Positions 24,798 through 59,200 of a stretch of 64,000 nt of DNA are shown piece by piece. How positions within the stretch are numbered: position 1 is the stretch's first letter; each line of letters opens with the position of its first letter. The notes beneath the pieces were generated by a model. The model was not told the origin of the DNA and did no database searches. It worked only from the letters and a program-made list of their open reading frames with translations. The position numbers were made by a program, and so were the translations under genes. The DNA comes from Xestospongia muta (taxonomy: Eukaryota > Porifera > Demospongiae > Haplosclerida > Petrosiidae): assembly GCA_963693285.1 (NCBI GenBank), contig OY848917.1, positions 12,834,192 through 12,898,191 of the forward strand, given 5' to 3'.

Positions 24798-25139
24798 TTT
24801 CAGTATTTTAGACGATTTGGGATTAGACGAAATCAATAAACTCTACCTCTCTGGATATTAGTAATAAAGAATCTGGTATTTGTAAGAAGTGTTTTCCTGT
24901 TCTTATCATTACAAAGAAACTTTCACAGGCATTCACTAGAAGTAATGTATTTTCTACAACTGAACTAGCAGAGATAGCCAGTCGATACTCTACAGTAGTA
25001 ATTGACAAGGGTGATGTACGACAGTGGAGAACCAACCTTCCAAAATATTCCAAATTTCTGGGAATCAGAGAAAAGCATGACTTCTTATTTGTGAAGTGTT
25101 CAGTGTCTTGAAAGGTGTTGGCTAAAACCTGTGGAATGT

Positions 25140-32200: not shown

Positions 32201-35200
32201 AATAAGTTGTACAATATTGAGGAATTTAAATGTTGGTATGATTACAGTACTGGTATATTGACCAGGTCTACTTGGCATACTTCTTGCTATTTCCATAATT
32301 TAAAAGATGGTCTATTGAAAAGTAGAGGCTGTTAATTACTTGCGAGTAACCAATTGAGTGAGTGATATGGAAGTACAGACATGACAATAACTTAAACACT
32401 TACTCTTAAAAGCCACATGTATATTATTGTTAGGTGCTCCAATGTTCACTTTGCATCTTGTTTACTTCTCTTTTACATTATACTGTATTAACATCAAATT
32501 ATTTTGTGTAGCTCGTCTCCATTGAATTAGTACTAATGCATGTAAAAAACCTATTCAAAAAAATCCTTAGTAGTAAATACATACTCATGTCATACATGTA
32601 CAACATGGAGTAGATATAGATAATGTACAGGTATAGTATTTTTTCATGACAATTAAAGTGGACAGCTAAAGATTAGGTACTTTTATGAAGTCTGTGTTAT
32701 TGTATTATTAGTGTAGCATGTTAGTGGTCTAATTTGACAGTTAATATTTTGTTTGTTATTACAATAGATTGGATGGGCAGCCCTTCATTATGCAAGTTTT
32801 GAAGGACATACAAAGATTGTTGAAGTATTAGTCAACCATAATGCCAACATAAACATTGTTACTAAGGTAATTCAGATAACAAGAATGAGTATGTTTCACT
32901 GTAGTGTTTTAATCTGTGTGAATAATTAGATATTAACTATTAAAGAAAACATAGCATAGGGATTATGATATAAAAATAAGACAGATAAGTAAAAAAGCTG
33001 AAAGTAGTAATGAAAGTTTTAATATTCCTACATAGTAGCCACAGAGACTGAGTAGTTGGGTTTATGTTGACTAGCTTAACAAAAAGCTGTGGCTATTGTA
33101 AATAAAAATCTCCCCTATTTTTTCATTATTTTTATCATGACTAAATTGTTGCTTAACAAAGACAAGTACTATAAATATTAAAGTAACGTTACTTAAAAAT
33201 ATGTTTTCTTCTTTTCATAATTATAATGCTGTTATTACTTATGATCTGAATGTGTCCTTTACAATGTAATAGCCGGTAAGTGTACTTTAATGTAGTATAA
33301 ATTTGAGGGTTTTTCTAATCCAATGCTTTCAATTTATTTACTCTATTTGTTTTCTCTATATATTGATGATGCTGTGATTACTTGTGATCTGAATGTGTCC
33401 TTTACAATATAATAGTCTGTAAGTGTGATGAACTAAAATAAAAAATTATAAGTGCATTTCAATCCATTGTTTTTATTTTATTTACTCTATTGGTTTTCTC
33501 TATATATATTTATGATACTATGATTATTTGTGATCTGAATGTGTCTTTTACAATATAATAGTCTGTAAGTGTGATGAACTAGAATAAAAATTATAAGTGT
33601 ATTTCAATCCATTGTTTTTATTTTATTTACTCTATTGGTTTTCTCTATATATATTTATGATGCTATGATTTCTTGTGATCTGAATGTGTCTTTTACAATA
33701 TAATAGGAAGTAAGTACAATTTAATATAGTATAAATTCTAAGTGTATTTCAATCCAATGTTTCCCTTTTATTTATATTACTTTTCTCTATTTATTTATGA
33801 TGCTGTGATTACTTGTGTTCTGAATGGATCCTTTACAATATTATAGTTGGTATGTGCCATTTAATATAGTATAAATTCTATGTGTATTTCAATCAAATGT
33901 TTCCTTTTTATTTACTCTATTGCTTTTCTCTATATATTTATGATGCTGTGATTACTTGTGATCTGAATGTGCCCTTTACAATATAATAGGAGGTAAGTGC
34001 AATTTAATATAGTATAAATTTTAAGTGTATTTTAAACCAATGTTTTTCTTTTTATTTACTCTATTGCTTTTTCTTTTTATTTTTATGATGCTGTGACTAC
34101 TTGTGAAATAAATGTGTCCTTTACAATATAATAGGCAGTAAGTGCAGTTTAATATAGTATAAATTCTATGTGCATTTCAATCCAAAGTTTTTCTTTTAAT
34201 TTACTTTATTGCTTTTTTTTCATTTTCATGATGCTCTGATTATTTGTGAAATAAATGTGTGCTTTACAATATAATAGGATGTAAGTGCAGTTTAATATAA
34301 TATAAATTCTAGGGTCATTTAAATCCAATGTTTTCCTTTTTATTTACTCTATTGCTTTTCTTTTTATATTTATGATGCTGTGATTTCTTGTGATTTGAAT
34401 GTGTTCTTTACAATATAATAGTTGGTAAGTGCAATTTAATATAGTATAAATTCTAAGTGTATTTCAATCCAATATTATCATTTTATTTACTCTATTGCTT
34501 TTCTTTTCGTATTTATGATGCTGTGATTTCTTCTGATTTTATATGTTCTTTACAATATAATAGTTTGTAAGTACAATATAATATAGTATAAATTCTAAGT
34601 ATATTTCAATCCAATGTTTTTCTTTTTATTTACTCTATTACTTTTCATGTTTATGATGTTCTGATTACTTATGATCTAATGTGTCCTTTACAATATAATA
34701 GTTGGTAAGTGTGATATAATGTAGCATAGTTTTAAGTGTATTTCAATCCAATGTTTTCCTTTTCATTTACTCTATTGCTTTTCTTGTCATATTTATTATG
34801 CTGTGATTACATGTGATCTGAATGTGTCCTGTACAATATAATAGACAGTAAGTGTGACATAATGTTGTATAATTCTAAGTATATTTCAATCCAATGTTTC
34901 CTTTTCATTTACTCTATTGCTTTTCTTTCATATTTATGATGCTGTGATTTCTTGTGATTTGAATGTGTCCTTTACAATATAATAGGAGGTAAGTGTGATA
35001 TAATGTAGTATAATTCTAAGTATATTTCAATCCAATGGTTTTTTTTATTTACTCTATTGTTTTTTTTCTTTTTGTTGTTACAATACTGTGATTACTTGTG
35101 ATCTAAATATGTCCTTTACTATACAATAGTTGGTAAGTGTGATATAACATTTGTACATGTGTTTTGTCATTATGGAAAAGAAGGTATTTATTATATTTGT

Positions 35201-38200
35201 TCTGTTTGAATTATGAGTATGTATTAAATTTTTTTGGAAGCCTGGTCTAATAAGTATGTGAGTTCAATGTCTTTGTAAGGGATGCTAGCTCATCCTCTAC
35301 CCTACTAAGAATTAGTAACTTTTGTTATTGCTACATATTACTGTTAATTGTCAAATTTATATTTATAATAGTTAAAATGATTGTTGTAATAAATATAATG
35401 TTGTCATATTTTGTAAAGTTACAAGTATAGTTATGTAGTGCATATATAACAGAGATAACAGAGATTATATACCAGAGTTTTGATATTTTACATTAGTGTT
35501 TTATTTTAACGTGTTTAGGTGGGATCTACTCCTGTCATCTTTGCAGCAAAGAAGGGACACAAAGATGTTGTTTTGATTTTAACACAAAAAGGAGCCAATT
35601 TAAAAGTTGTTAGCGAAGTAAATATTTATGTACATACTACAAGTAGCTAAAAATAAAATGCAAGTTCTTTTTCTTTAAAGACAGTAGTTAATCATGACAG
35701 TATTGTAATTGTTGTGATAGTGTTAGGGTTGAATTACTGGTTTTAATGATATGTTAAATAAAATGAGTATTGGAAGGAGAACAAGCTACAAAGCCATGAT
35801 CATAACATTAGAAAAAGTGCAGTTGTTGTATAATGTGTGCAGTACAATTTTCCTAATCAATAGATTAAGATGATATGTTACAAATAATATATTTATCATG
35901 ACAATTAAAATAGACAGCTAAGATAAGGTACTTTTATGAAGCCTGTGTTATTGTACTATTAGTGTAGCATGTTAGTGGTCTAATTTGACAGTTAATATTT
36001 TGTTTGTTACTACAATAGATTGGATGGACAGCTCTTCATTATGCAAGTTTTGAAGGACATACAAAGATTGTTGAAGTATTAGTCAACCATAATGCTGACA
36101 TAAATATTGTTACTAGGGTAATTCTGATAACTAGAATGAGTATGTTTTTACAGTAGTGTTTTAATCTGTGTGAATGAATAGATATTAACTATTAAAGAAA
36201 ACATAGCATAGGCATTATGATATAAAAATAAGACAGACAAGTAACAAAAGCTGAAAGTAGTAATACTAGTATGAATATTCCTACATAGTAGCCACAGACA
36301 CTCAGTAGTTGGGTTTATGTTGATTAGCTTAAGAAAAAGTTGTAGCTATTGTAAATAAAATCTCCCCTATTTTTTCATTATTTTTATCATGACTAAATTG
36401 TTGCATCTCTGTACACATTGACAGCAATTATATGTAACTTAACAAAGACAAATACTATAAATATTAAAGTAACAATACTTGAAAACATGTTTTTTCTTTA
36501 CATAATTATAATGCTGTTATTACTTGTGATCTGAATATGTTCATTACGATGTAATAGCCGGTAAGTGTACTTTAATGTAGTATAAATTTGAAGTTTTTCA
36601 ATTCAATGCTTTTAATTTATTTACTCTATTTGTTTTTTCTATATATTTATGATGCTATAATTACTTGTGATCTGAATGCGTCTTTTACAATATAATAGTC
36701 TGTAAGTGTGATGGACTAGAGTAAAAATTATTAAGTATATTTCCATCCAATGTTTTTATTTTATTTGCTCTATTGCTTTTCTCTATATATTTATGATGCT
36801 GTGATTACATGTAATCTGAATGTGTCCTTTACAATATAATAGGAGGTAAGTCTGATGAACTAGAGTAAAAATTATTAAGTGTATTTCAATCCAATGGGTT
36901 TTTTTATTTGCTCTATTGCTTTTCCTATATATTTATGATGCTGTGATTTCTTGTGATTTGAATGTGTCCTTTACAATATAATAGGAGGTAAGTGTAATTT
37001 AATATAGTATAAATTTTAGGTGTATTTCAAACCAATGTTTTTCTTTTTATTTATGTATTGGTTTTCTTTTCCTATTTATGATGCTGTGATTGCTTGTGAT
37101 CTGAATGTGTTCTTTACAATATGATAGAAGGTAAATGCAATTTAATATAGTGCAAATTGTTAGTCTATTTCAATCCAATGTTTTTCTTTTTATTTACTTT
37201 ATTGCTTTTCTTTTCTTATTTATGATGGTGTGATTACTTATGATCTGAATGTGTCCTTAACAATGTAATAGCCGGTAAGTGTACTTAATGTAGTATAAAT
37301 TTGAAGTTTTTTCAATCTAATGCTTTCAATATATTTACTCTATTAATTTTCTTTTGTTTTTATGATCCTGATATTACTTGTGATCTAAATTTTTTCTTTT
37401 ACAATGTAATAGATGGTAAGTGTACTTTAATGTAGTGTAAATTTTAAGTGTATTTCAATCTAATACTTTCATTTTATTTACTCTATTGCTTTTCTCTATA
37501 TATTTATGACGCTGTGATAACTTGTGATCTGAATGTGTCATTTGCAATATAATAGGCGGTAAGTGTGATGAAATTTGGTAAAATTCAAAGTGTATTTCAT
37601 CAAATGTATTTCTCTTTATTTATTCTATTGGTTTTCTTTTCATATTTATGATGCTGCGATTACTTGTGATCTAAATGTGTCCTTTTCAATATAATAGATT
37701 GTAAGTGTGATGAAATACATTAAAATTCAAAGTGTATTTCATCAAATGTTTTTTCTTTTTATTTACTCTGTTGGTTTTCTTTTCCTATTTATGATGTTGT
37801 GATTACTTGTGATTTGAATGCGTTCTTTACAATATAATAGAAGGTAAGTACAATTTAATATAGTAAAAATTCTAAGTGTATTTCAATCCAATGTTTTTTT
37901 TACTCTATTGCTTTTCTTTTCATATTTTTAATGCTGTGATTTCTTGTGATCTGAATGTGCCTTTACAATATAATAGGAGGTAAGTGTGATGAAATACTAT
38001 ATTTAAATTCCAAGTGTACTTCAATCCAATGTTTTTCTTTTATTTAATATATTTCTTTTCATATTTATGATACTGGGATTTTTTGTAATTTGAATGTGTG
38101 CTTTGCAATATAATAGGAGGTAAGGGTGATATAATGTAGTATAATTCTAAGTTTATTTCAATCCAATGTTTTCCTTTTTATTTACTCTATTTTTTTTTCT

Positions 38201-41200
38201 TTTGAGTTTTACAATGCTGTGATTACTTTCAATCTAAATATGCCTTTACTATACAATAGTTGGTAAGTGTGATATAACATTTGTACATGTGTTTTGTCAT
38301 TATGGTAAAGAAGATATTTGTTGTATTTGTTATGTTTGAATTATGAATAAGTATTAAATTTTGTTGGAAGCCTTGTCTTATAAATACATGAGTCAAATGT
38401 CTTTGTAAGGGATGCAAGCTCATCCTCCACACTACTAAGTATTAACAATTATTGTTCTTGCTACATATTACTGTTAATTGTCAAATTTATATTTATAATG
38501 GTTTGTCTAGAAAAGTATTTATGCAAAAAGTGTCTATTATGATGTAATGATTATGTTTGTATTGCTGAGTGTTATTTGTATTAGTAACATTATTGTAAGA
38601 ATTATTGAGAGTTTTTTTAGTTTAAAAGTGATTATTGTGATAAACATAACATTGTCTTAGTTTGTAAAGTTACTAGTATAGTGATGTAATACATATATAA
38701 CAGTGATAACATAGATAATATACAACTGTTTTGATAATGTTCACATTAATGTTTATTATAATGTGTTTAGGAGGAATCTCCTCCTGTCTTGTTAGCAGCA
38801 AAGAAGGGATATAAAGATATTGTTTTGATTTTAACACAAAAAGGAGCCAAGCTAGGAGTTGTTAACAAAGTAAGTATTTATGTACATACAACAAGTAGCT
38901 AAAAATAAAATGCAAGTTCTTTTTCCTTAAAGACAGTTGTTATTTATGATGGTATTGTAATTGTTATGATAGTGTTAAGGTTGAATTATTGTTTTTAATG
39001 ATATGTTAAATAAAATGAATATTGCAAAGAGAACAGGATACAAAACAGTGATCAATTTTTCTACTTATTAGACACAAATCAATAGATTAACATGTTATAT
39101 ATAGTATATTTATCATAAAGTGGACAGCTAAAGATTTGGTTCCTTTTTGAAGTCTGTGTTATTGTACTATTAGTGTAGCATGTTAGTGGTCTAATTTTAC
39201 TAGTAATATTTTGTTTGTTATTACAATAGATTGGATGGGCGGCCCTTCATTATGCAAGTTTTGAAGGACATACAAAGATTGTTGAAGTATTACTCAACCA
39301 TAATGCTGACATAAATATTGTTACTAAGGTAATTCAGATTACAAAAATTAGTATGTTTCACTGTAGTGTTTTAATCTGTGTGAATGAATAGGTATTAACT
39401 ATTAAAGAAAACATAGCATAGACATTATGTTATAAGAAATAAGACATACAAGTAAAAAAGCTCAAAGTAGTAATGCCAGTTTTAATATTCCTACATAGTA
39501 GCCACAGAGACCCAGTAGTTGGGTTTATGTTGATTAGCTTTTAAAAAAGCTGTGGCTCTTGTATATAAAATCTCCCCTATTTTTTTCAATATTTTTATCA
39601 TGACTAAATCGTTGCATCTCTGTACACATTAACAGCAATTATATGTGACTTAACAAAGACAAGTACTATAAATATTAAAGTAACGATACTTGAAAACATG
39701 TTTTCTTCTTTTCATAATTACGATGCTGTTATTACTTATGATCTGAATGTGTCCTTTACAATGTAATAGCCGGTAAGTGTACTTTAATGTTGTTTAAATT
39801 CTAAGTGTATTTCAATCTAATGTTTTTCTTTTTATTTACTTTATTGCTTTTTTTTTTCATATTTATGATTATGTGATTACTTGTGACCTGAATGGCCTTT
39901 ACAATATAATAGTTGGTATGTGCAATATAATATAGTATAAATTCTAAATTTATTTCAATCCAATGATTTCCTTTTTATTTACTCTATTGCTTTTCTTTTC
40001 ATATTTATGGTGCTGTGATTACTTGTGATCTGAATGTGCCGTTACAATATAATAGAGAGTAAGTGCAATTTAACATAGCATAAATATTAGGTGTATTTCA
40101 ATCCAATGTTTTCCGTTTATTTACTCTATTTCCTTTCTATTCATATTTATAATGTGGTGATTTCTTGTGATTTGAATATGTCCTGTACCATATAATAGAA
40201 GGTAAGTGCAATTTAACATAGCATATATGTTAGGTGTATTTCAATGCAATGTTTTCCTTTTTATTAACTCTATTGCTTTCTTTTCATATTTATGATGCTG
40301 ATATTACTTATGATTTGAATGTGTCGTTTACAATGTAATAGCGGGTATGTGTACTTTAATGTTGTTTAAATTCCAAGCATATTTCAATCTAATGTTTTCC
40401 TTTTTATTTACTCTATTACTTTTCTTTTCATATTTATGATGCTGTGATTGCTTGTGACCTGAATGTGCTTTATAATATAATAGTTGGTAAGTGCAATTAA
40501 ATATATAAATTCACAGTGTATTTCAAATCCAGTGTTTTTCTTTTTATTTACTCTATTGCTTTTATCTATACATTTATGGTGCTGTGATTACTTGTGATCT
40601 GAATGTGTCCTTTACAATATCACAGTTTGTAAGTGCAATTTAATATAGTATAAATTCTAAGTACATTTCAATTTAATGTTTTCATTTTATTTACTCTATT
40701 GCTTTTCTCTATATATTTATGATGCTGTGATTACGTGTGATCTGAATGTGTCCTTTACAATATAATAACCGGTAAGTGTGATGAAATATAGTAAAAATTC
40801 TAAGTTATTTAAATCCAATGTTTTTATTTTATTTGCTCTATTGCTTTCTCTATATATTTATAATGCTGTGATTACTGGTGACCTGAATGTGCCTTTACAA
40901 TATAATAGTCTGTAAGTGCAATTTAATATAGTATAAATTATAGGTGTATTTCAATGAATTTCTTTTTATTTACTTAATTGCTTTTCTCTATATATTTATG
41001 ATGCTGGGATTACTTGTGATTTGAATGTGTCCTTTACAATATAACAGTATGTAAGTGCAATTTAATGTAGTATAAATTCTAAGTGTATTTCAAACCAATG
41101 TTCTCATTTTATTTACTCAATTACTATTCTATTCATATTTATGATGCTGTGATTACCTGTGATCTGAATGTATCCTTTACAATATAATAGGAGGCAAGTG

Positions 41201-44200
41201 TGATGAAATATTTAAAATCTTCTAAGTGTATTTCAATCCAATCTTTTCTTTTTTATTTACTCTATTGCTTTTCTCTATATATTTATGATGCTGGGATTAC
41301 TTGTGTTCTGAATATGTCGTTTACAATATAACAGTATGTAAGTGCAATTTAATGAAGTATAAATACTAAGTGTATTTTAATCCAATGTTTTTGTTTTGTT
41401 TACTGTATTGCTTTTCTTTTCGTATTTATGTTGCTGTGATTACTTGTGATCTGAATGTGTCCTTTACAATATAATAGTATGTAAGTGTGATCTGACATTT
41501 ATACATGTATTATATGTCATAATGGTAAAGAAGGTATTTGTTGTATTTGTTCTGTTTGAATTATAAATAAGTATTAAATTTGGTTGGAAGCCTTGTCTTA
41601 TAAGTATGTGAGTTCAATGTTTTTGTAAGGGATGCTAGCTCATCCTCCACACTACTAAGAATTAGTAACTTTTGTTATTGCTACATATTACTGTTAATTG
41701 TCAAATTTATATTTATAACAGTTTGTATATAAAATTGTCAGTGCAAAAAGTGTCTATTATGATGTAATGATTATGTTTGTATTGCTGAGTGTTATTTATA
41801 TTAGTAACATTATTGTAAAAATTATTAATAGTTTTTTTCAGTTTAAAAATGATGGTTGTAATAAATATAATGTTGTCTTAGTTTGTAAAGTTACTGATAT
41901 AGTGATATAATACATATGTAACAGTGATAACATAGATAATATACAACTGTTTTGATATGTTGTCTTGGTTGACATTAATGATTTATTATAATGTGTTTAG
42001 GAGGGATCTACTCCTGTCATGTTAGCAGCAAAGAAGGGACTCAAAGATGTTGTTTTGATTTTAACACAGAAAGGAGCCAATTTAGAAGTTGTTAACAAAG
42101 TAAGTGCTTATTTGCATACAAAAATCTCCTTATAAGTAAAGATATAATGTAAGTTATTTTTCCTTAAAGACATTTGTTAAATTTGTTAAATAATATTGTA
42201 ATTGTTGTAATACTGTTAAGGTTGAATTATTGTCTTTAATTGTATGTTAACGAAGATGAATATTGGAAACAGAACACGATGCAAAATCCTCATCATAATA
42301 ATTATTATGGAAAATATGTAATTGTGTTAACATGTGTATATATTGTTCAAATTTCATTCTTTAAAAGAGATGATCTTAATTGAAAACAGCTAAAACAATA
42401 TTCAAGTTTTATTTCCTTAAAGACAGATGTTAATTATGATAGTATTGTAATTGTTGTGATACTGTTAAAGTTGTATTACTGTCTTTAATAATATGTTAAA
42501 TAAGATTGGAAGGAGAACAAACTACAAAGCTCTGATCATAATATTAGAAAAAATGTAATTTTTTGAAAATATGCAGTGATCAATTTACCTACTTATTAGA
42601 CACAAATCAATAAATAGACATGACATGTTATATATAGTATATTTATCATGACAATTAAAGTGGACAGCTAAAGATTAGGTATTTTTATGAAGTCTGTGTT
42701 ATTGTACTATTAGTGTAGAATGTTAGTGGTCTAATTTGACTGTTAATATTTTGTTTGTTATTACAATAGTTTGGATGGGCAGCCCTTCCTTATGCAAGTT
42801 TTGAAGGATATACAAACATTGTTGAAGTATTAGTCAATCATAATGCTGACATAAATATTGTTATTAAGGTAATTCTGATCACAAGAATGAATAAGTTTCA
42901 CTGTAGTGTTTTAATCTGTGTGAATGAATAGATATTAACTAATAAAGAAAATATAGCATAGACATTATGATATGAGAAGTAAGACAGACAAGTAAAAAAG
43001 CTCAAAGTAGTAATGCCAGTATGAATATTCATACATAGTAGCCACAAAGCTCAGTAGTTGGGTTTGTAACTTAACAAAGACAAGTGCTATAAATTCTTGA
43101 AAACATGTTTTCTTCTTTCCATAATTATGATGCTGTCATAACTTGTGATCTGAATGTGTCCTTTACAATGTAATAGCCGGTAAGTATACTTTAATGTAGT
43201 ATAAATACTAATGCATTTCAATCCAATGCCTTCATTTTATTTTCACTTGCTTTTCTCTATATATTTATGATGCTGTGATTACTTGTGATCCTAATGTTCC
43301 TTTACAATATAATAGAAGGTAAATGTAATTTAATATTATATAAATTCAAGTATATTTTAATCCAATGTTTTTCTTTTATTTACTCTATTGCCTTTCTTTT
43401 CATATTTATGATGCTGTGATTACTTATGACCTGAATGTGCCTTTACAATATAATAGTTTGTAAGTGCAATTTAATATAGTATAATTTCTAAGTATATTTC
43501 AATCCAATGTTTTCATTTTATTTACTCTATTGTTTTTTTCTATATATATATTTATGATGATGTGATTACTTGTGATCTGAATGTGTCCTTTGCAATAAAA
43601 TAGGAGGTAAGTGTGATAAAATATAGTAAAACTTCTAAGTGTATTTCAATCCAATGTTTTTATTTTTATTTACTCTATTTGTTTTCTGTTCCTATTTATG
43701 ATGCTGTGATTTCTTGTAATTTGAATGTGTCCTTTACAATATAATAGAAGGTAAGTGCAATTTAATATAGTATAAATTCTAAGTGTATTTAAATGCAATG
43801 CTTTCATTTCATTTAATCTATTGCTATTCTCTATATAATTATAATGCTGTGATTACTTGTGATCTGAATGTGCCTTTACAATAATAGTCTGTAAGTGGAA
43901 TTTAATATAGTATTAATTCTAAGTGTATTTTAATCCAATGATTTTCTTTTTATTTACTCTATTACTTCTCTTTTTATATTTATGATGCTATGATTATTTG
44001 TGATCTGATTGTGCCTTTACAATATAATAGAGGGTAAGTGCAATTTAATTTAGTATAAATTCTAAGTATATTTCAATCCAATGTTTTCACTGTATTTACT
44101 CTATTGCTTTTCTCTATATATTTATGATGCTATGATTACTTGTGACCTGAATGTGTCCTTTAAAATCTAATAGGAGGTAAGTGTAAGGAAATTTATTAAA

Positions 44201-47200
44201 ATTCAAGCTGTATTTCAATCCAATGTTATCCTTTTTATTTACTCTATTGCTTTTCTTATTTATGATGCTGTGATTTCTTATGATATGAATGTGTCCTTTA
44301 CAATATAATAGAAGGTAAGTGCAATTCAATATAGTATAAATTCTAAGTATAATTTAATCCAATGTTTTCTTTTTTATTTACTCTATTGCTTTTCTCTTCT
44401 TATTTATGATGCTGTCATTTCTTGTGATCTGAATGTGTCCTTTACAATATAATAGGAGGTAAGTATGATATAATGTAGTATAATTCTAAGTATATTTCAA
44501 TCCAATGTTTTTTTTTTATTTACTCTATTGTTTTTTTCTTTTTGGTGTTACAATACTGTGATTACTAAATATGTCCTTTACTATAAAATAGTTGGTAAGT
44601 GTGATATAACATTTGGACATGTGTTTTGTTATTATGGTAAAGAAGAAATTTGTTCTGTTTTAAATATAAATAAGTATTAAATTTTTTTGGAAGCCTTCTC
44701 TTATAAGTATTTGAGTCCAATATCATTCTAAGCGTTTTTCAGTTTAAAAATGATGGTTGTAATAAATATAATGTTGTCTTAGTTTGTAAAGTTACTGATA
44801 TAGTGATGTAATACATATATAACATTGATAAGATAGATAATATACAACTGTTTTGATATGTTGTCTTGGTTGACATTAATGATTTATTATAATGTGTTTA
44901 GGAGGGATCTACTCCTGTCATGTTAGCAGCAAAGAAGGGACACAAAGATGTTGTTTTGATTTTAACACAGAAAGGAGCCAATCTAGAAGTTGTTAACAAA
45001 GTAAGTATTTATGTACATACAAGAAGTAGCTAAAAATAAAATGCAATTTTTTTCCTTTAAAACAGTTGTTAATTATGATAGTATTGTAATTGTTATGATA
45101 CTGTTAAGGTTGAATTATTGTCTTTAATGATATGTTAAATAAGATGAATATTGGAAGGAGAACAAGATACAAAGCGCTGATCATAATATTAGAAAAAGTG
45201 TAATTTTTTGAGAATATATGCAGTCATCAATTTTACTACTTATTAGACACAAATCAATAGATAGACATGTTATATATAGTATATTTATCATGACAATTAA
45301 AGTGGACAGCTAAAGATTAGGTACTTTTATGAAGTTTGTGTTATTGTACTATTAGTGTAGCATGTTAGTGGTCTAATTTGACAGTTAATATTTTGTTTGT
45401 TATTACAATAGATTGGATGGGCAGCCCTTCATTATGCAAGTTTTGAAGGACATACAAAGATTGTTGAAGTATTAGTCAACCATAATGCTGACATAAATAT
45501 TGATACTAAGGTAATTCAGATCACAAGAAACAATATGTTTCACTGTAGTGTTTTAAAATATGTGAATGAATAGATATTAACTATTTAAGAAAACATAGCA
45601 TAGGCATTATGATATAAAAATAAGGCAGACAAGTAAAAAAGCTGAAAGTAGTAATGCCAGTTTTAATATTCCTACATAATAGCCACAGAGACTCAGTAGT
45701 TGGGTTTATGTTGATTAGCTTAAGAAAACGTTGTGGCTATTGTAAACTAAATCTCCCCTATTTTTTCATCATGTTTATCATGACTAAATTGTTGCATATC
45801 TGTACACATTAACACCAATTATATGTGACTTAACAAAGACAAGTACTATAAATATTAAAGTAACGATACTTGAAATATGTTTTTTTCTTCCCATAATTAT
45901 GATGCTGTTATTACTTGTGATCTGAATGTGTCCTTTACAATGTAATAGCCAGTAAGTGTACTTTAATGTAGTGTAAATTTTAAGTGTATTTCAATTCAAA
46001 GCTTTCACTTTATTTACCCTATTGCTTTCTCTATATATTTATTACACTGTGATTACTTGTGATCTAAATGTGCCCTTTACAATATAATAGTTTGTAAGTG
46101 CGATGAACTAAAGTAAAAATTCTTAGTGTATTTCAATCCAATGTTTTCCTTTTTATTTACTTTATTGTTTTCTTTTCATATTTATGATGCTGTGATTGTG
46201 ACTTGAATGAGCCTTTACAATATAATAGGAGGTAAGTGCAATTTAATATAGTATAAATTCACAGTGTATTTCAATCCAATGTTATTCTTTTTATTTACTC
46301 TATTGTTTTCTTTTCATATTTATAATGTTGTGATTACTTGTGACCTGAATGTGTCCTTTACAATATAATAGAAGGTAAGTGCAATTTAATATAGTACAAA
46401 TTTTAAATGTATTTCAATCAAATGTTTTCCTTTTTATTTACTCTATTGCTTTTCTTTTCATATTAATGATGCTGTGGTTACTGGTGACCTGAATGTGCCT
46501 TTACAATATAATAGGATGTAAGTGCAATTTAATATAGTATAAATTCACAGTGTATTTCAATTCAATGTTTTTCTTTTTATTTACTCTTTTGCTTTTCTCT
46601 ATATATTTATGATACTGTGATTACTTGTGATCTGAATGTGTCCTTTACAATATAATAGTTTGTAAGTACAATTTAATATAGTATAAATTCTAAGTTCATT
46701 TCAATCCAATGTTTTCATTTTTATTTACTCTATTACTTTTTTCTATATATTTATAATGCTCTGATTACTTGTGATCTGAATGTGTCATTTATAATATAAT
46801 AGTTGGTAAGTTTGATTTCTATAGTAAAAATTCTAAGTGTATTTCAATGCAATGTTTTTCTTTTTACTTACTCTATTACTTTTTCTTTTCATATTTATGA
46901 TGCTGTGATTACTTGTGATCTGAATGTGCCTTTACAATATAATAGTCTGTAAGTGGAATTTAATATAGTATAAATTCTAAGTTCATTTCAATCCAATGTT
47001 TTCATTTTTATTTACTCTATTACTTTTCTCTATATATTTATGATGCTGTAATTACTTTTGATCTGAATGTGCTTTTATAATATAATAGAAAGTAAGTGCA
47101 ATTTAATATAGTATAAATTCTAAGTATATTTCAATCCAATGTTTTCATTTTATTTACTCTATTTCTTTTCTCTATATATTTATGATTCTATGATTACTTG

Positions 47201-50200
47201 TGATCTTATTGTGTGTGTCCTTTACAATATAATAGGAGGTAAATGTGATGAAATATAGTAAAATTCTAAGTGTATTTCAATCCAATATTTTACTTTTTAT
47301 GTACTCTATTGCTTTTCTCTATATATTTATGATGTTGTGATTACTTGTGATCTGAATGTGCCCTTTACAATATAATAGAAGGTAAGTGAAATTTAATATA
47401 GTATAAATTCTAAGTGTATTTCAATCCAATGTTTTCATTTTATTTACTGTATTGCTTTTCTTTTTTATATTTATGATGCTGTGATTACTTGTAATCTGAA
47501 TATGTCCTTTACTACACAATAGTTGGTAAGTGTGTTATAACATTTGTACAGTATTGAATTAGTAACTTTTGTTATTGCTACATATTACTGTTACTTGTCA
47601 ATTTATATTTATAATAGTTTATCTATAAAAGTGTCTATAGAAAAAGTGTCTAGTATGATGTATTGATTATGTTTGTATTGCAGACTGTTATTTATATTTG
47701 TAACATTATTGTAAAAATTATTAAGATTTTTTTAGTTTAATAGTTTAGAAATGATTATTGTAATAAATATAATGTTGTCTTAATTTGTTAAGTTACTAGT
47801 ATAGTGATATAATACATATATAACAGTGATAATATAATATATACAGCTGTTTTGATATATTGTCTTGGTTCACATCAATGATTTATTATAATGTGTTTAG
47901 GAGGGATCTACTCCTGTCATGTTAGCAGCAGAGAAGGGATACGAGGATGTTGTTTTGATTTTAACACAGAAAGGAGGCAATCTAGAAGTTGTTAACAAAG
48001 TAAATATTTATGTACATACAACAAGTAGCTAAAAATAAAATGCAAGTTCTTTCTCTTTAAAGACAGTTGTTAATCATGATAGTATTGTAATGGTTGTGAT
48101 AGTGTTAAGGTTGAATTATTATTTTTAATGATATGTTAAATAAAATGAATATTGGAAGAACAGGCTACAAAGCGCTGATCATAATATTAGGAAAAAGTAT
48201 AATTTTGAGAACGTGTGCAGTGATCAATTCACCAACTTATTAGACACAAATCAATTGATAAATACAAAAGATCGTGATGCAAGGCATGACTTGTTTAGCT
48301 TTGAAATGTCTTTAAAAGTATCTGGAAATATCAGTATAGCATACTTTTATATATCTACTGTTGGCTCTAAAGTATACTTTTGATAACATTTTAAAATTGT
48401 GACAATGATCAGAAAATGATTGCGGCTTCTCTGTTACATTCCAGATAGTGATAAATTATTTTTTCATATAAATAATTTTCAATGGACTGGTTTGTGTCTA
48501 GATTTGATTAAATTCATTTTTATTCTTTTGTTGTCTTAACTTTTGTTATTACATTTTATGACATCTCAACATAGTAGCCAACAATGGAATCTCAATTATC
48601 TTTATGTTTCGATTTTAACTTGCTGCTATATTGAGATACCTCTTTTTATTTATATTATAACTATTAAATTTCATGACCCTCAATTGTCTAATTAATGTGT
48701 ATGGAGATATTAATGTTGCTATTCCTACTGTGGTAATGTTTGAGATACTTCCTGCCACTATTCTAACATTTCATGAATATCAGTAGTGTCTGTGTGTTTT
48801 TGGTAGGAATTTCTATTCTGTCATTCACACTGTGGTATTGTTTTAGATCATGTTACCACCATCTGTACTTTTCAAACTTACGTTTAATTTTTCATGTACT
48901 TGTACAATTGTAATCATTAATAAATAACAAGTACACAAGATAAAGTGTCATTATAGACAAACCTAAATGAGGTCAATATCTATCAAAAATGATCTCTTTT
49001 ATGTGCATTTATTATGAGTTATCTTTATCATCACATTATTTCAAGTTATATTAATTTTTTATGTTATTGAGGAATTATATTATAGTGAATTATTGTTGTA
49101 ATGTTTGTAGAATTTATTTTAAATTTTCATCATTAAATATCAGTAAATTCAATTTCATCCTTATATTGCATACATATACTCGTGTATGTCCTTGCCTCTG
49201 ACATAAGTTTCATGTACAATTTATTGAATTACTAAAATTAGTAATTGATTTTTTTTTATAAGTAAGTTTCATATTACACATACATGTGTATTTTGATTTG
49301 TTGTTATATAGGCTGGTAAAACTGTTCTCTATACATCATGTTATGAAGGTCATAATGAGATTGTTCGAGTTCTTTTAAAAGCTGGTATAAAAATGAATGT
49401 TCCAGACAAGGTCAGTGTCATATTAGTATACAATGTAATTGTAGTTGTCTATAATACTTAATACCAACCATTATATACATGAGATACATCAAGCAGGTAT
49501 ATAGCAGTATTCAAAACAAGTTTACATACTATCTTTGTAGAACAGCTAGTGTAAAAGTTGTGCTATTACATTATGTCAAAACATTACTTACTAAGCATTA
49601 TTTTGATTTTTATGATCTATGTTTACTTACTTTGACTTATTTCTTGCTTTTCTCATATCATTTAGTATGGACGTACAGCACTTCATGCAGCTTATTGGAC
49701 TAAAAATGATGTCATTATGAAGATGTTAGTTCATGCTAATGCCACCAATGAAGAAGCTGTACAGGCTGTAAGTCATGATGTTATAAATTTGTAGATATTT
49801 GTATATATGCTCTACATCAGTCTTACTCTATGTTTGTAGTGGTTGTTATATGTACATAGTTTTGGTGATTTTAGCATTTACAAGTACATAAACATATATA
49901 TATATATATTGATGTAATCAAACAAGTACAGTCAGATGTTGACAAGATTATAAGTAGTAGGAACATTTTGGCAGATGATAGTTTTAGTGTAACAAAGTGA
50001 TTGCAAATTCACTCCGGATGTATGAGTGCTCTATTAATACGTATATCTTATTATTTAGAAGAGTATATATATGTTCTGTGTTAGTATAAAAATTAAGACA
50101 TTTTCCTATACTATTTAGGACACTTTGTTTTTGGAATCTTCAAGAAAAGGAGATGTAGAAGGCATTAAAGATGCATTGTCTAGGGGAGCTAATGTTAACA

Positions 50201-53200
50201 TTGGAAACAATGTATGCTAACTTGTAATATGTACACAATTATGAGGGAAAATACAGATAATATGATGTAATGCAAGCTCAAAAGTCTGCAGACCTGAAGG
50301 TTGTCTTTATCAAGGCATCTGTATATGTAAATGCAGTACATTCCTGGTTGGGTTATAATGTGTTTGTGGCTAACACCATAGAATTGTCATAACCTTGTAT
50401 CTGATAAAGTGTGGTTTGCTTATACTTTCAACTGCTTAATATCAACAATTTTTTATTTGTCCTTTTACATATATACAGGATGGACAAACTGCTTTGTACA
50501 TAGCATCTAAGAATGGCAATAATAAATGTGTTCAGCTTCTTCTCACATCCTGTGCTGACCCTAATATTGCTGATCCAGTAAGTTGTGAATATCATTACAT
50601 TTGTTTGTTCACCAAACAAGATTAATATATAACATATGCTATGTCCTAAAATGTTTTAACCAGCTTACTCAAAAAAAATCACATAAAGTAACTACACAAT
50701 CATCTAACTATCAAGCAAGATTCTGTTACATTTATAAAATATTTAAGAGTCTGCAAATTATATCAATGAATGTAAACTATTACATGGAGTCAGTCAAATT
50801 TACTGCATTTGCTAAGTTAGTATTTTTACATTGTTAAGAATGAAATGATGTTTTTAAATGGTTTGTAGCCTGTGTTGGTTCTAGTATCTGATAAAGACTG
50901 GTTTGTTGAGACTTTTAACTTCTTGATATCATGTCACAGTTATTAGAAAAAACAAATTTTATTATTTATTTTGGTTTAACACTATGTTAAAAATATTTTA
51001 CTCATGATTGTTTGAAGTTACAAGGAAGCATGCTATATTTTATTCAAATAGTTTTAGGTCATTATAACCTTCATTTATTGTATATTAATTTGTATATTTT
51101 AACATTAGATGATTGTGCAGTTAACATTGCTATGTCCTAAAATGTTTTAGCCAGATTACTGAAAAAAGTATCATATAAAGTAACTACACAATTATCTAAC
51201 CACCAAGCAGCATTCTGTTACATTTATGAAATGTTTCTGGAGTCTAAAAATTGTATCAGTGAATGCAAACTATTAGAGGATAGAGTCAGTCAAATTCACT
51301 GGATTAGCTGATTTTAATATTATCATTTATTGTTAATGGTTTGTAGCTTGTGTTAGTTCTAATAACATTTCCTTTCATTTCAAGAGTCAAACTATTTGAT
51401 GTATAAAGCAATTTCTTGTCTGAGTCATTTTAACATTACAGTAGAGAACTAATAAAAACAAGTAATAAAAACATTTGAGAAATTTAAAGATGATTTAGAT
51501 ATGACAATGCCAAAAAGGAAAGAAACAATATAGAGATGAACACACAAATTAAAAATCTCTCCATAAGTAGCCAGTCAGTAATTGCATGATAGCTTTGTAT
51601 CTTTGTATTTAGTATATGCAGTGAAAGAGTATATAGTGTTTATATTGAAATTGTACTGTATTGCTTCCTGGCTACATATATAGGAATTTTAATATGGATT
51701 TGTGTGTTCAACCCTATCTTGTTTTTTGGCAATATTTTTTTCAAAAAGTTTTTAAATACTTCTTTTTTTATTGTGCATTCAAATGGTCTTAGCTACTTTG
51801 TCATTACTATGTTCAAATATTTAAACTTATTAATGTCTATCTCAACTTCTTACTGCTTATAAATTGAGTTATTTCATTAAAAAAATTAATAATTTATGAT
51901 CATTTTTATAGTCTATTGAGCTAGACCTTCTTTCCTAATCCACAAGAAGGGTCTAGAGCAAAGGTCACTTAAAAACTTTAGCCAATTACAAAAGTGAAAA
52001 CATACATACTCTGCAACCTTACCATTTGAAACAATTTGTTTACCTTAAAAGATTAATGGATTTTAAAGAACCATACATACTGACCTGTAGTACCATGAAA
52101 CAGTTTCACTTTTGTTGCGACCACAAACAAACTTTGACCTTCTATAAACAAGATATCATTGAGCCTATACTTATAGTGCTACTTTCTGTTACCCACGCTA
52201 TCCATAATCTGGGTAGTGAAATCTGATTGGTCAATTCAAATGTAATCTATTGTGATGTTTGTTAGACCCTTGTTGCATATAAGCAAAGTAAAGGGTTCAG
52301 ATCAATAGAATAGTGTCATCTTTGAAAGCTAAGTTATTATATCCTGTCATTAAGTGATTATTAATTACATATAAAGTGATGATATAAAATATGATTTTGT
52401 GGGGAATTAGTAGTTTTGTAACTTGGCAAGAGTTGGTAACCATTTACCATTTTGCAATTATATAGAAGTTCAGTCTCACATATGAATGGTGTTAATTGTA
52501 TAGAAGATAACCCCTGCAAATTAACATGATAGTGGGGCTTGTAAAACGTTTCTCAAAAATTGTTTTACTTATTGTAGATGCATTACTATTAGAATAAGTT
52601 ATGAAAGTGTGTCTACATTGAGTAAGGGATCCTTAAAAACAGGTTAAAATATAAGAATGAGTTCATATAGTTCTAAAATCCTCATTTCTTCTGAGTACTA
52701 TGTTTTAGTTAATTATAACTAAAACTAAACCATCTTAGTTTAGCCTATTTGACTGTTAGTTAACTAACTATAACTAACTAAATCTTTTTCATCTAACAAT
52801 TAACTAACTACAACTAACTATATTTCTTTAAACCAAGAAAACTAACTAAAACTAACTAAAATTAATGCAATATTGGCAAAAACTAACTATAACTAACTAT
52901 TATAGTTAGTAGTGAACTAAAACAACAGATACCTGCACTCAATAAATAACTGTCATAACTGCACAAAGATAAACCAAGGTGTAAGACGATAATTTGCAAT
53001 ACATCCAATAATGATAGTGCTATTACTGTTATACTTGAGTATTTTTACTCTAGATGACAGCTACCTGATCAGAACAAGCTAGACCCATTAGATTTTTGGG
53101 TAGAAAATCAGATACAAACTTAAAGAATGAAATACTTCTTAAGACAAACAAATAATACCTTCAGTCTAATACTACATACATTAAATTTAACTAACTTTTT

Positions 53201-56200
53201 CAACTATAACTAACTAAAATTATTCCACTGGCAGAAAAACTAACTATAACTAACTAAAGTTATAAAAAGCTATACTAAAACAACACTACTTCTGAGGTAT
53301 TGCATCGATATCTTATTAAATTTTCTTATTGTTTGTTTACCACACAAATATCTAACTTACTAAAACATAAACCAAATACTATTGTTATAGATAAGTAAAT
53401 GTTAGTTAAAAAATGGAGTATTTCTAACAACATAGTCTATTCTGAGCTATAAGGAATGTTACTTACTAATACATTTTATTTCTTTAGTTTGGTAACACAC
53501 CCCTTCATGTTGCCTGTATGGGTTGTCATGGTGATGTCGTGAAGTCTCTTTTGTCGTCAGGAAAAATCAACCCAATGGCTAGGAACAGAGATAATCAAAC
53601 AGCTATGGAGCTTGTTTATCGTAACACCAAAAAGCGCTTCATTATTTTAAAGATGTTTGAGCCATTTGAACAATGTCGAAAAGAATTCCCCGTGGAATCC
53701 TACAGCAAAGTCTTTTTCTGTGGTAATACCGGTGCAGGTAAAAGTTCACTTGCAGCAGTCATTATGGAACGAGCTAACAAACCACCTAACTACATGTTTG
53801 ATACATCTGATCCTATTCCAGTAGAACTACTAACTACTGGGATTAATGCACATACCATTACAAGTCATGAAGTGGGAAATATTGTCCTTTATGATCTTGC
53901 AGGTCATAAGGAGTATTATAGCAGTCATGCAGCAATTCTAGAAAAGCTTATGCTAAGCACACCTGCTGTTTTTGCCATACTTTTAAAGATGACCGACAAT
54001 CTACACATTATTAAACGTGATTTGTACTACTGGTTCAATTTTATAAAGAATGCCAATCTTCAATTATCAAGTTCAAAACCATCTCAAATACTCGTCATTG
54101 GAAGTCGACTTGATGAGATGACTGGTGGTTATGTGGAAATTTCTAAAGTAGTTGCTGAAGTTGCTGAAAAAGCTGATCATTCGGAAGAATATCGGGGGTT
54201 CCTACCTATGGAATGTCATCGTCCTGGAGGAAAAGGTGTTAATAAGTTTGTTACTACACTTTCTTATAGCTGCAATGCTGTACTTGATCGATCTGATAAA
54301 ATTAGTTTTTACTGCCACGTTCAATTCTCCTTCTTGCAATTGCTTCGAAATAAAGAGAATATTATAGCCATTAACCTAAAGGAGCTATGTGCTGTATTAC
54401 AAAAGCGTGATGACCCTTCACTTCCTTCTGAAAGGTCTGTGTTATTGGAGTTCCTTACCACTTTAAGTGACAAGGGTCTCATCTTATTCCTTAAAAGTGA
54501 GGATGATGCTCAAAGTTGGATAGTTATTGACAGAGCTACTCTTATCCATGAAGTCAATGGTGTCCTATTTGCTCCTAAGGAAATGGAACATGTCCATCAA
54601 AGTATTGCTAGTAATACTGGTATTGTGCCTAAGTCTATTCTGCAAAAATTATTTCCAAAGCACAATACTGATATGTTAATTGGATTCCTTAGAAGTCTTC
54701 AGTTCTGTCATGTTCTAGAAGCAAACACACTACAAATGTTCAAAACCAATATATCATCTTCAATATCTTCTTTGCCATCGGATGAGCTTTTATTTTTTCC
54801 ATCTCTAATTTGTAATGAGCCACCAACAGATATTGTAATAGAAAACGGGTTAGGATGGTGCCTCTGGTGTCCTGATCCTAACCAATTTCTCTCCACACGA
54901 TTTCTTCACCTTCTTCTTTTTACCCTTTCTTACGTTTTTTGTTTACCACGCCACAATATACCTGGTGAAATTAATTATGATGATCCGCAAATCCAAATGT
55001 TGGCACGTCATTGTGATATATGGAGAAATGGTATTTATTGGGAAAATGATGAAGTTGAAGTTATCATTGAAGTAACTGAACACTATCGTTGTGTTACAGT
55101 AATCACATCAATGATTGACATCAAGAAAAGCCGCAATATTTTTAATAATGTTATTAAGGTTGTATTAAAGTTGAGTGAGATGCATTCATTTAAATGTGAG
55201 GAATACCTCATTGCTCCTAGTGATGTAGCAAAAGCTCGTAATCTTGTTAAAGAACGCACACTTTATCGTATAAGCAATGTAGCTCGATCAGTGCTCACAA
55301 AATGTAAAGTTAGTGATGCCATTGACACAAAGAAGGTGGATGTCAAACAAATTGTAGGAGCTAATGATCCTTTTTTCTGCATTGCTCCTTCAGTTACAAA
55401 AGCACTTTTCAGTGCTGAGCTGCCAATTCGAGAGGATCACCTTCAACACTTAGTGAATAGTTGTTCTTATTTGTCATCCTCACTGTTATCATCAAGTCAC
55501 ATGTCAGTAGAGGAACGTTGCAGTCAGCTCAGTGTGTTTGCTGGACGTAATCCTTTGGTAAGTATAAATAAGTTTGAATATACATGTACAAGAAATCTAT
55601 TGGAAAGTTGTCATACATCATACTTGCACCACATTAATTTTGTAATGTATCATACTTACACTACTCTGTACTGTATCATTATTCATTCTGCTATAGGATC
55701 TTGCTTATCCTCCATTAAAAAAAGATGATATAGAAACTATATCTCATCGATTCAACATCTTAAGAGGTCAGTTAGTGTATAGTATTAGTGATTCATAAGT
55801 ATTGGTTACAGCCAACTTTTAGGGTGTATTGCAGATACAGTGTGCTGTGTAGTAAAACAAATAGAAGGATTATTATGTCACAGCATATGCTATATGTGTA
55901 ATGCAATTCAATACAGGTTGGACTATAATGTGCTAATGGTTTGACGGCATAGAAATTCAAAGTGATATTATATTCTATTATTTGTTTATGTCAGTACTAT
56001 ATCTGTATACAAATGTTATTTTATCAAGTCTAAGCACCTCATCAATACTTTGAGCTTCTATGTCGTCACTTGTTTTATTAAATCATATCTATATAATATG
56101 TGGATTTGTCTATAATGAGAGATGACACACCTAACCAAACTGAATATAAAAATCATTAAAACTAGTTTTACACAACAATTACATTATTAAATTATGACAT

Positions 56201-59200
56201 ACAAGTACTCATTCGAGCTATAGAAAGAGTAGCCAGATTTGATGGTGATAAGAATTAGCAAATAGTTTCACGGAAGAATTAATGCAAATGCTTACAAAAG
56301 ATATCCATGCACATGCTATTCTCACTGAGCCAGAATCTCGTCTACAAAGACAGAGTTATCACATTCAGCACGTGGTATAGAGAAGTCAACTAAAATATAA
56401 CTTCCAGTTGTCAGGAAGCCACCTTGCATGAAACAAAAATAGTAGACAACAGCCAGACTACAGACATTGAGCCCATGCTTGCAAGTCCACAAATAAGATA
56501 ACAGCAAAGAATTCCAGAGAAAATGAACATAAACGATATAAATGTCTAATTTTTGGACAAGAAGTTGATCTTTAAAATTAGAAGAATTTAGGGATCAACA
56601 TCCTAAAATCAAACAATAAGCAGATGTCAATCAATTAGATGTCATTGACAGTGAAGCCCCTAAACCTGAAAGTGTCCTACAACTTTCTCAGAGTATTCTT
56701 TCTAAAATGGGAAGAGGACCTCAACAGCAGATGTCTAAGTCAACCTGGATAGATGTACTAGACAGTGACAGTTAGCCACAGTTTGCTTATGTATCTAGAG
56801 CTTTGTTTGGCAATACTGCAAATGTGATAGTACACAAATTGTCTGATCGTCTGTCATGTAAACCCTGTCTTCCAATACTCAATAAAAGGAGAAGCACTTA
56901 GCCAGCCTCAGGAGCTCAGGATGACTAATCTAGAGCTTATTACAACACTTCTGCTCAATTTAATCAGCAAATATAATGGCTGTAGATGGAAATGAATCTA
57001 CTCCTATTTTCCTAATAATTGGTACCTACTATGACAAAATGGGAGGCCTACGATGGCCATTTCAAGAGTCTATCAAAACAAACATTTATAAAATCAAACA
57101 TTCATAGTGCATTGAGAATAAAGTAAGGGCCTTTCTGCAACTGGTTTATAAAATAAATGTCTTTATGTCATTACCAGTTAATCCTTTGGGTTACACATTT
57201 TTTTGATATTGTAACAAATGACGATATCAATAGACCTCACTAAGATTGAAAAATTGTTTTTTTAAATTATTTATTATTTTGTCTTATCCTATTGAAGATA
57301 TTATATTATTAGATCCATTTTACATTTTCATTTTGTAGCTACGCTACCAACAACTACTTGTCCTGCTAGTCATGATCCTAATCCAGTTGGTATGTTAATG
57401 CTAATTAGTGACATTTTTCCTAGCATTTTAACATATGATACATTAACAAAAGTTAATGTAACTTGTGTCATATAAAATGTAGAATTCTGTAGTATATATG
57501 TAAATGCTTGATATCAATACCATCCCACATTAGGCATGACATGGTAGTGATGTCATGTCTGACATAAGCTATGCTTGAAAAGTTTGTTGCTTCGCTTTAT
57601 ATTGATTCCTTTGAAATAAAATATTTAATGACTTATTCAGCTATTAGCAGATATGATGTGACTGCCAGTTCTATATACACATCTATATGGATGTTAGTGT
57701 GTTTTAACTAATATTTAATCAGCTCTAAAAGTTAAGACCACCTGGCATTCATATGTTATTAGTATATCACTAATTCTATATTCATATCAAGGCTGCATAT
57801 ATTCAAGTATGATAAATGTGACCTAATATATTAGTATTTTCCTAAACATAACAACTGAAACATACTAACGATTCTTTAATTTACTGAAGAACAAACGTCA
57901 AGGACAAAAACTACAACCGCAGCCAACAAACATAATTATAGACTTTGAACTAATATTTCAACAGGCTGGTTCGATTGACATTTCCATTTTTCTGGTGTTA
58001 TGGTAAATATTTTAAAATGATTTTCCATTTTTTGATCTGTTGACATTGTAAAATATATAGATATTAATTAAGGTTTTATGTAAAATTTGTAATAAGATAG
58101 CACATCCACAAACATTGACTGTGTCTTTTGACTGTCTTGTCATCTATGTTAATACCAATAACATTATTATGTTTGTTTTAGTGTTTAGCAAAAAAGCTCT
58201 TTTTATTATATATTTTCCCATTCACATCAGGTAATATAATTGAAGGAGATGTACATGTATCAACATTACCAGATCAGCTCTTGGATCAACAACCTTCAAT
58301 TCAAGAATTAACTACACACGCTAGAACTGCAGAGTGGAATCAGTTAGGTGTGAAACTACAACTAGACAGTGTGGATCTAGCTGGATGTCATGACTGTACT
58401 AGTATGTATCAATTATGGATTATGCAGAAAGCAAGAGAAGCAACAAGAAGGAGTTTATTGGTTGCTTTAAGAGCTATTAGGCAGAATGATATAAAAAGTG
58501 TTTATGAAGATTATCTCAAAACAATGGTTTGTTTACACTATATATACATCAATATATACACATATATGTAGATAATTAATTGATTGAAACACTCAGCTTA
58601 GAAATAGTTCATATATTTAATTAGTAAGTTTTTGTATTATTGGATTCCTCTCATTCTTGTGGTTGTTTTGACAGTGTCATGAAGTTATTAGTAATTTCTT
58701 AGTATTATTTTTGTCAATTCTTCATGATTATAATCTAGTAAGGAATCACTTTTAATACATGGTCAAAACAAAATGTGTATATTTCTATTTCCATTTTGAT
58801 ATTATAGCCACCAAATAATATGGTTTGAAATATTCCAAAGCAGTCTTTATAGAGAGTCCATTGTTTTACTACTACTACTTATTATATTCAAATTAAATGT
58901 CCTAATTAATAGAATTATCCTCTCTTCACATATTAGGCCATAAATTTACATGAAATAAATCAGAGAGTTACTGATGCTACAACTTTCAAGGAGAGAGGCA
59001 ATGATTCTTTTAAGGCAGGGAAGTACAAATTAGCACTAGAGGATTATAAACGAGGATATGGTCTAGTACATAAAGTCTCCATTTATAAAGATGAAGAAAA
59101 TGAACAAACTAAAAATGTTTGTCTTTTACTTCTTCTTAACATGGCTGCCTGTTATCTCAAGTTAGATAAGGCTATGGAAGCTAAAGAACAGTGTGATGAA

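Follow-up and report, generated by a model that had tools for sequence, protein, structure and literature searches.

Arrays of candidate one-codon exons between ankyrin repeats in a sponge gene family

Introduction

How short can an exon be and still be open to choice in splicing? This question is raised by a stretch of 64,000 nucleotides (nt) from the sponge Xestospongia muta (contig OY848917.1 of assembly GCA_963693285.1, positions 12,834,192 to 12,898,191 of the forward strand), which is called the window here. In the window, ankyrin repeats, a GTPase-like domain and a Death domain are encoded in this order on one strand, and five introns between ankyrin exons hold tandem arrays of a unit in which an acceptor-like and a donor-like splice signal are separated by three bases. 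The original prediction read each unit as a short intron plus a 3-nt exon, and our analysis bears this out as far as genomic DNA can: the units look like real one-codon exons because the length of 3 nt is fixed, stop codons are avoided in phase, the triplet varies between conserved splice signals, and, wherever both exons of an ankyrin pair were recognized, the units are placed in one type of intron, that leading from the first exon (A) to the second exon (B). We propose that the arrays are made up of one-codon exons lying in frame between ankyrin repeats, that a subset of them is used and that their codons are kept diverse by selection, and we give this reading a probability of about 0.74. 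Several questions follow. Are the units more than chance or a neutral repeat? Does selection or mutation make the triplets differ? Are all triplets joined into a protein, or a few? What kind of protein would carry them?

Arrays in the window and in the genome

A regular-expression scan of the window gave 66 matches, of which three isolated ones off the arrays (at 35657, 38909 and 41722) were dropped, leaving the 63 units of five 143-bp tandem arrays (Table 1). The predicted spacing of 136-147 bases between successive triplets was reproduced in bp over 58 intervals. Each unit had been said to carry an acceptor, three bases and GTAAGT; this is nearly so for AG and GT, each found in 62 of the 63 (one donor is GC), but the complete GTAAGT is present in only 55. 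Both exceptions are in array 3, where the unit at 40769 has TAA as its acceptor and the unit at 41191 has the GC donor. The 63 triplets comprise 19 distinct codons for 13 residues, with no stop codon among them. All ten exons A and B beside the arrays have 99 nt, AG..GT borders, phase 0 and one ankyrin repeat each, so that the predicted phase-0 exons on either side and the predicted insertion point at the boundary between repeats both stand. The opening unit of all five arrays (33273, 36558, 39770, 43177 and 45949) encodes proline, by CCG in four and CCA in one; these opening units carry TGTAATAG ahead of the triplet where TATAATAG is usual, and the TGTAATAG form also occurs in three inner units.

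The phenomenon is larger than had been noted, amounting to thousands of units. The genome (158 Mb in 28 contigs) was searched with reversed patterns as controls. When up to 3 mismatches were allowed, TTTACAATATAATAG-NNN-GTAAGTG gave 4373 + 6211 = 10,584 matches against 9 + 22 = 31 for its reversal, and the shorter exact pattern AATATAATAG-NNN-GTAAGTG gave 1351 + 2813 = 4164 against 0, which rules out chance as the cause of the units. A scan of viral contigs gave a single match in each of five contigs, taken as chance. For closer study, 29 stretches and two later ones were sampled, about 298 kb of the 158 Mb, all picked by pattern matches (loci, numbered with L). The codon vocabulary differs between arrays: GAG, GGG, CAG, GTG and TGG in L010-L011, and GAA, CAT and TCA in L016. 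At L036:892-2752 an array of units is broken up by open frames that resemble a transposase.

Fixed length and avoidance of stop codons

The length of three is nearly invariant. Exact genome counts by spacer were 9 for 2 nt, 4164 for 3 nt, 1 for 4 nt and 0 for 6 nt (the reversed control for the 6-nt spacer gave 7 matches). In the 29 loci and the window, 839 left halves of the unit had a good right half within 15 nt, and the distance was 3 nt in 835, 2 nt in three and 4 nt in one. Of the nine spacers of 2 nt, two map near 30.75 Mb of contig C1 (L014), where TAG triplets also occur, which a decayed copy would be expected to show.

Stop codons are rare at the triplet. Between the same exact flanks as the 4164 matches, TAG occurs 5 times, TAA and TGA 0 times and TAT 11 times genome-wide. 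If positions were independent, the 825 units in the loci would be expected to include TAA 25.9, TAG 57.0 and TGA 11.4 times; 0, 6 and 0 were observed. In the main test each triplet was counted once per locus, and L013, L014, L015, L018 and L019 were excluded because they lie at or beside places found with a TAG pattern; 0 stops were found against 21.8 expected, and 0 of 20,000 column permutations were as low (minimum 10). With these five loci included there were 4 stops against 26.5 expected, and still 0 of 20,000 permutations as low. The ratio of observed to expected stops was 0.29-1.35 at the 72 other offsets for which 5 or more stops were expected. The TAG triplets found sit in L014, L015, L018 and L019, in none of which an ankyrin exon was recognized; these look like decayed arrays.

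Variable triplets within conserved splice signals

In the 63 window units the three triplet columns have 1.90, 1.75 and 1.25 bits of variability, and the AG and GT columns 0 to 0.12. Among 143 columns the first two of the triplet rank 1 and 3, a column 73 bases upstream reaches 1.76, and the median of the rest is 0.56. The same contrast appears in 2673 within-locus pairs of units with flanks diverged by 10% or less: mismatch was 0.47, 0.59 and 0.30 at the triplet, and the flanks had 0.069, with 0.34 at their most variable column, the pairs being non-independent.

Longer comparisons point the same way. In paralogous matches 600 bp or longer, triplets diverged 4.7 times as much as flanks within the same locus and 2.4 times as much between different loci where flanks differed at 1-3%; the corresponding ratios were 7.6 and 7.0 at 3-6%, 5.3 and 3.5 at 6-10%, 3.9 and 4.0 at 10-15% and, above 15%, 0.7 (3 units) and 2.9. 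Where flank divergence in such matches was below 10%, 213 of the 218 changed triplets had an altered residue. One match in L026 differs at 43 of 6451 flank sites and at 3 of 18 triplet sites. L026 also contains a module of about 2793 bp, made up of exon A, two units and exon B, in near-identical repeats, with 15 differences between two copies; the first unit of the modules is constantly GAT, and the second reads ATA, CCG, ATG, ACG and ACG.

Placement between ankyrin exons

In loci where both exons were recognized, units are present in 22 A-to-B introns out of 24, and all 26 B-to-A introns lack them. One additional B-to-A interval, the 32-kb gap separating the two genes of the window, has one unit-like match. 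The usual donors also differ, being GTAATT for exon A and GTAAGT for exon B. Direct joining of A to B keeps the regular repeat spacing, and each triplet would thus be an extra residue at the joint between two repeats. This joint is the tip of a hairpin in ankyrin proteins.

Taken with the fixed length, the avoidance of stops and the variability, this placement makes it very probable that the triplets are translated one-codon exons.

Evidence on the other side

Several observations weigh against our reading and are gathered here. The case for one-codon exons is built from genomic sequence. Splice signals are broken in some units: 90 additional left halves have no good right half, with GT at the expected place in 23, GC in 4 and neither in 63, and ten right halves in the sampled loci are without the acceptor AG. 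TAG was found six times in the 825 units, each time in a locus chosen for its TAG, and looser matching gives 7 in the first 20 loci. Synonymous changes are scarce, 1 of 74 one-site changes against 22.6% expected, and since the third codon position doubles as donor position -1 this scarcity is confounded. Two of the 24 A-to-B introns (218 and 383 nt) contain no units. Direct joining of A to B gives the uninterrupted ankyrin spacing of 33 residues, and the inserts are therefore dispensable. The fetched stretch showed no recognizable ankyrin exon at 13 of the first 29 loci, and a motif search for ankyrin exons in these 13, which had no tblastn match, also found none.

These 13 loci would suit a neutral intronic satellite, in which splice-like motifs are cryptic and the triplets are never spliced or translated, and tandem repeats of such size are common in introns. 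Such a satellite offers no neutral reason for a fixed 3 nt or for a variable triplet inside conserved splice signals, and it leaves unexplained that stop avoidance is stronger at the triplet than at the 72 other offsets. We regard it as highly improbable.

Could the codons differ through a hotspot of mutation at the triplet and not through selection? The changed triplets often differ at more than one site (84 of 218 at 2 sites and 53 at 3), as if swapped whole. A control is provided by a 480-bp repeat in L027, of which the 18 copies with regular spacing among 21 were used and the forms tallied by eye. At its live junction, where the splice signals are kept, pairwise difference is 0.69 and 0.76 at triplet columns one and two, column three is always G, and the triplet has six forms in 18 copies; the other 473 columns average 0.083, three of them reaching 0.686. 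A second junction is dead, AG being lost in 16 of 18 copies, and its triplet is GAT in 12, AGT in 5 and GAC in 1. With differences of 0.42, 0.42 and 0.11 this dead triplet lies above the background, which favours a hotspot and weighs against our reading, but it is less variable than the live one and mostly GAT. Segmental pairs give a divided answer. In local alignment L001/L002 shows no excess, with triplets differing at 1 of 36 sites and flanks at 3.0% (ratio 0.9); this counts against our reading and equally against a hotspot. L016/L017 differs at 4 of 57 triplet sites and 2.0% of flank sites (ratio 3.5). Earlier global alignments had given 1 of 36 against 2.3% for L001/L002 and 4 of 51 against 9.5% for L016/L017, the latter with 672 gap columns. 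One unit of L001/L002, GGT/AAA, stands outside the pair counts, and its donor is damaged in L001. A hotspot alone would also give stops, and the strict set, apart from the TAG loci, contains none. We therefore think a hotspot improbable as the source of diversity, though less so than a satellite. Hypermutation, considered because triplets change as a whole, was not favoured.

How the triplets may be spliced and multiplied

If the units are exons, each would consist of an intron of about 140 nt and an exon of one codon. Since both neighbours are in phase 0, any number of triplets could be joined without a frameshift, each adding one residue at the joint between repeats. The figure of 0-14 added residues per array given earlier comes from arithmetic. 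Splicing is expected to be stepwise, because acceptor and donor are 3 nt apart, too close for simultaneous binding. Exon A would first join the acceptor of one triplet, which would bring a strong GTAAGT donor to its end, and this donor would then join exon B or a further triplet.

Would all triplets be used? Were all of them spliced in constitutively, each array would encode one variable peptide loop with its codons split by introns. Length 3, stop avoidance and variability fit this equally well, as does the distance of about 140 nt between successive units. It would require splice factors to be bound 3 nt apart at the same time, which is unlikely on general grounds. It also meets a difficulty of size. 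At L025 the flanking L035 supplied exon A, which is followed by 17 + 65 = 82 units over more than 12 kb with no exon B up to that point, so that more than 80 residues would stand between two ankyrin repeats; an A-to-B intron with at least 82 units makes the use of all of them in one protein less likely. Constitutive inclusion seems unlikely to us, but it is the most serious of the alternatives to one-codon exons used in part. We hold it somewhat probable that each mRNA takes up only some of the triplets of an array, most likely one or few. In some clusters of mutually exclusive exons the introns have conserved pairing elements. No consensus fold was found for 83 introns of the arrays, and the mean energy z was +0.35 (60 introns, single-base shuffles).

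How did the arrays grow? Neighbouring triplets are identical in 107 of 664 cases against a shuffled expectation of 100.5, units three apart in 90 of 508 against 75.8, and units six apart in 59 of 317 against 45.3. The last two figures are a hint of blocks of three. That neighbours are no more alike than shuffled ones, and units three or six apart more so, speaks against serial insertion with target-site duplication. Such insertion is what tandem mobile introns (introners) would imply, the unit being a transposed intron and the triplet a 3-bp target-site duplication. Introners are repeated intron-like elements inserted into many genes, and the account in PMC9860276 includes families with insertion-site repeats of 3-9 bp. 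Our units do resemble complete short introns, and later diversification could erase a signal of equal neighbours, yet no excess of equal neighbours is seen; the units are confined to one intron type where both exons are recognized, and no spread into unrelated genes was seen in the examined loci, 13 of 29 of which have no recognizable host exon. An origin from introners is thus very improbable in our view, no less so than a neutral satellite. For one-codon exons we would instead expect growth by block duplication, of which the three-unit signal is a weak sign, with selection keeping the codons different.

The host gene and its relatives

The features of the gene are collected in Table 1. The original prediction spoke of an ankyrin-GTPase-Death gene, and the Pfam domains do lie in this order on one strand; from order and strand we infer that these exons belong to one transcript. 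A typed A+B pair scores 63.8 bits with Pfam Ank (cut-off 21.1) in two stretches, as an ankyrin repeat protein should. The GTPase frame scores 23.2 bits with MMR_HSR1 (cut-off 21.9). Of the two domains expected of a ROCO protein (Roc-COR GTPase), Roc scores 20.3 bits (cut-off 27) and COR is absent from the six Pfam families listed at E <= 0.01. Its AlphaFold model, with a pLDDT of 45.9, was too poor for a structure search. The genome has at least 67 copies of this frame, 67 of 497 candidates having been scored; 66 copies are free of internal stops. Searched against the protein collection it matched 675 proteins at E <= 1e-10, the 120 listed all being from ENA.

Table 1. Exons, arrays and open frames of the gene in the window (positions counted from the first letter of the window)
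Feature	Position	Strand	Tandem Repeats Finder limits	Details
Exon A1, one ankyrin repeat (33 aa)	32768..32866	+		phase 0, donor GTAATT; Pfam Ank on typed A+B pair
Array 1, 14 units	33209..35139	+	33209-35139	CCG TCT TCT GAA TTG GAG GCA GAT TTG TTT TTG ACA GAG TTG
Exon B1, ankyrin repeat	35519..35617	+		phase 0
Exon A2, ankyrin repeat	36019..36117	+
Array 2, 13 units	36492..38277	+	36492-38277	CCG TCT GAG GAG AAG CCG ATG GCG ATT AAG GAG GAG TTG
Exon B2, ankyrin repeat	38771..38869	+
Exon A3, ankyrin repeat	39230..39328	+
Array 3, 13 units	39706..41487	+	39706-41487	CCG TTG AGA AAG CGG TTG TTT CCG TCT TAT GAG TAT TAT
Exon B3, ankyrin repeat	42001..42099	+
Exon A4, ankyrin repeat	42770..42868	+
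Array 4, 11 units	43113..44615	+	43113-44535	CCG AAG TTT GAG AAG TCT AGG GAG AAG GAG TTG; final triplet at 44592
Exon B4, ankyrin repeat	44902..45000	+
Exon A5, ankyrin repeat	45412..45510	+
Array 5, 12 units	45892..47540	+	45893-47532	CCA TTT GAG AAG GAT TTT TTG TCT AAA GAG AAG TTG
Exon B5, ankyrin repeat	47901..47999	+
Ankyrin-like exon downstream of arrays	49315..49410	+
More ankyrin-like open stretches	near 49666-49770, 50120-50210, 50480-50578	+
Long open frame, one ankyrin repeat then GTPase-like domain	53488..55728	+		MMR_HSR1 above cut-off, Roc below
Open frame with Death domain	58182..58571	+		Pfam Death 26.4 bits, cut-off 22.6

Upstream in the window is a second copy of this gene type. 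It has an exon B (537-635), two ankyrin-like exons (2211-2306 and 4412-4498) and, at 7219-9303, a GTPase frame that shares 94% identity with the frame at 53488-55728. Open frames at 11855-16842 and 24135-27836, between the two genes, are presumably pieces of mobile elements, judging by resemblance.

Joined A/B queries (330 aa and 132 aa) found ankyrin proteins in the protein collection. Among the matches listed, the highest identities belong to P0024, P0031 and P0036, which are labelled Gigantopelta aegis, come from contigs of 37-85 kb and match part of the A/B query at 60-82% identity. P0031 and P0036 have the A-to-B joint without an insert, and P0024 has B-type repeats only; being gene predictions, none of the three is usable as RNA evidence. 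P0031 also has, by eye, a stretch resembling the GTPase frame. These matches are possibly foreign DNA in that assembly, or possibly a real relative.

Relation to known systems

Exons of 3 nt are not new in themselves. Those of mouse Ncam and Drosophila troponin T are present in mature transcripts, and that of troponin T is skipped in one larval muscle system (PMC8042270); the cases named there are single exons, whereas thousands of arrayed candidates are found here. The candidates share with microexons (3-30 nt, in frame) the acceptor and donor around a short exon and an open length that keeps the frame. They also share with duplicated alternative exons a tandem arrangement at equal length and equal phase, homology being judged from the intron parts since the codon is too short.

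Among the nearest likenesses is also Dscam1 of insects and crustaceans, in which tandem duplicated alternative exons stand at fixed places in one gene with potential combinatorial diversity, and for which an immune role has been proposed. According to PMC5465998, Dscam1 of D. melanogaster has 12, 48 and 33 variants, one of each being used per mRNA. The exons of Dscam encode portions of Ig domains and belong to a single cell-surface gene; here there are single codons, in arrays at many places of the genome, and a choice of one per mRNA is a possibility. Micro-exon genes of schistosomes are named in PMC5825161. As a general feature, such genes resemble the arrays in having very small exons. Here only one-codon candidates occur, clustered in one intron type, and most of the coding sequence is in 99-nt exons and a frame of more than 700 codons. 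In schistosomes many different small exons compose one secreted protein.

The original prediction knew of no described array of single-codon exons, and our search agrees in finding none in the literature covered, most subscription journals and preprints being outside the coverage. The arrays have the look of a hitherto undescribed means by which RNA splicing could vary single amino acids.

Implications

In the outcome that we would expect, single residues would be varied at several places in a protein with GTPase and Death domains, possibly an intracellular receptor. Whether the host protein is an immune receptor we judge to be an even question. We can suggest, below even odds and tentatively, that the arrays act as an RNA-level generator of a repertoire, in which one or few codons per array are chosen in many members of a family of at least 67 copies. 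For the gene in the window alone, simple arithmetic gives 25,088 distinct proteins at one residue per array and 46,656 with skipping allowed. If this is true, the sponge would have intracellular ankyrin-GTPase-Death proteins with very many surface variants, their diversity being set residue by residue at the joints between repeats.

If the triplets are spliced, this would be alternative splicing at the resolution of a single amino acid, involving thousands of exons, with indications that selection favours their diversity. How the spliceosome handles serial exons of 3 nt would be put to the test, and the arrays point to a kind of coding sequence that would probably escape ordinary gene prediction and read mapping. 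Such splicing would also open a new route to protein repertoires and provide a candidate for a diversified recognition system in an animal.

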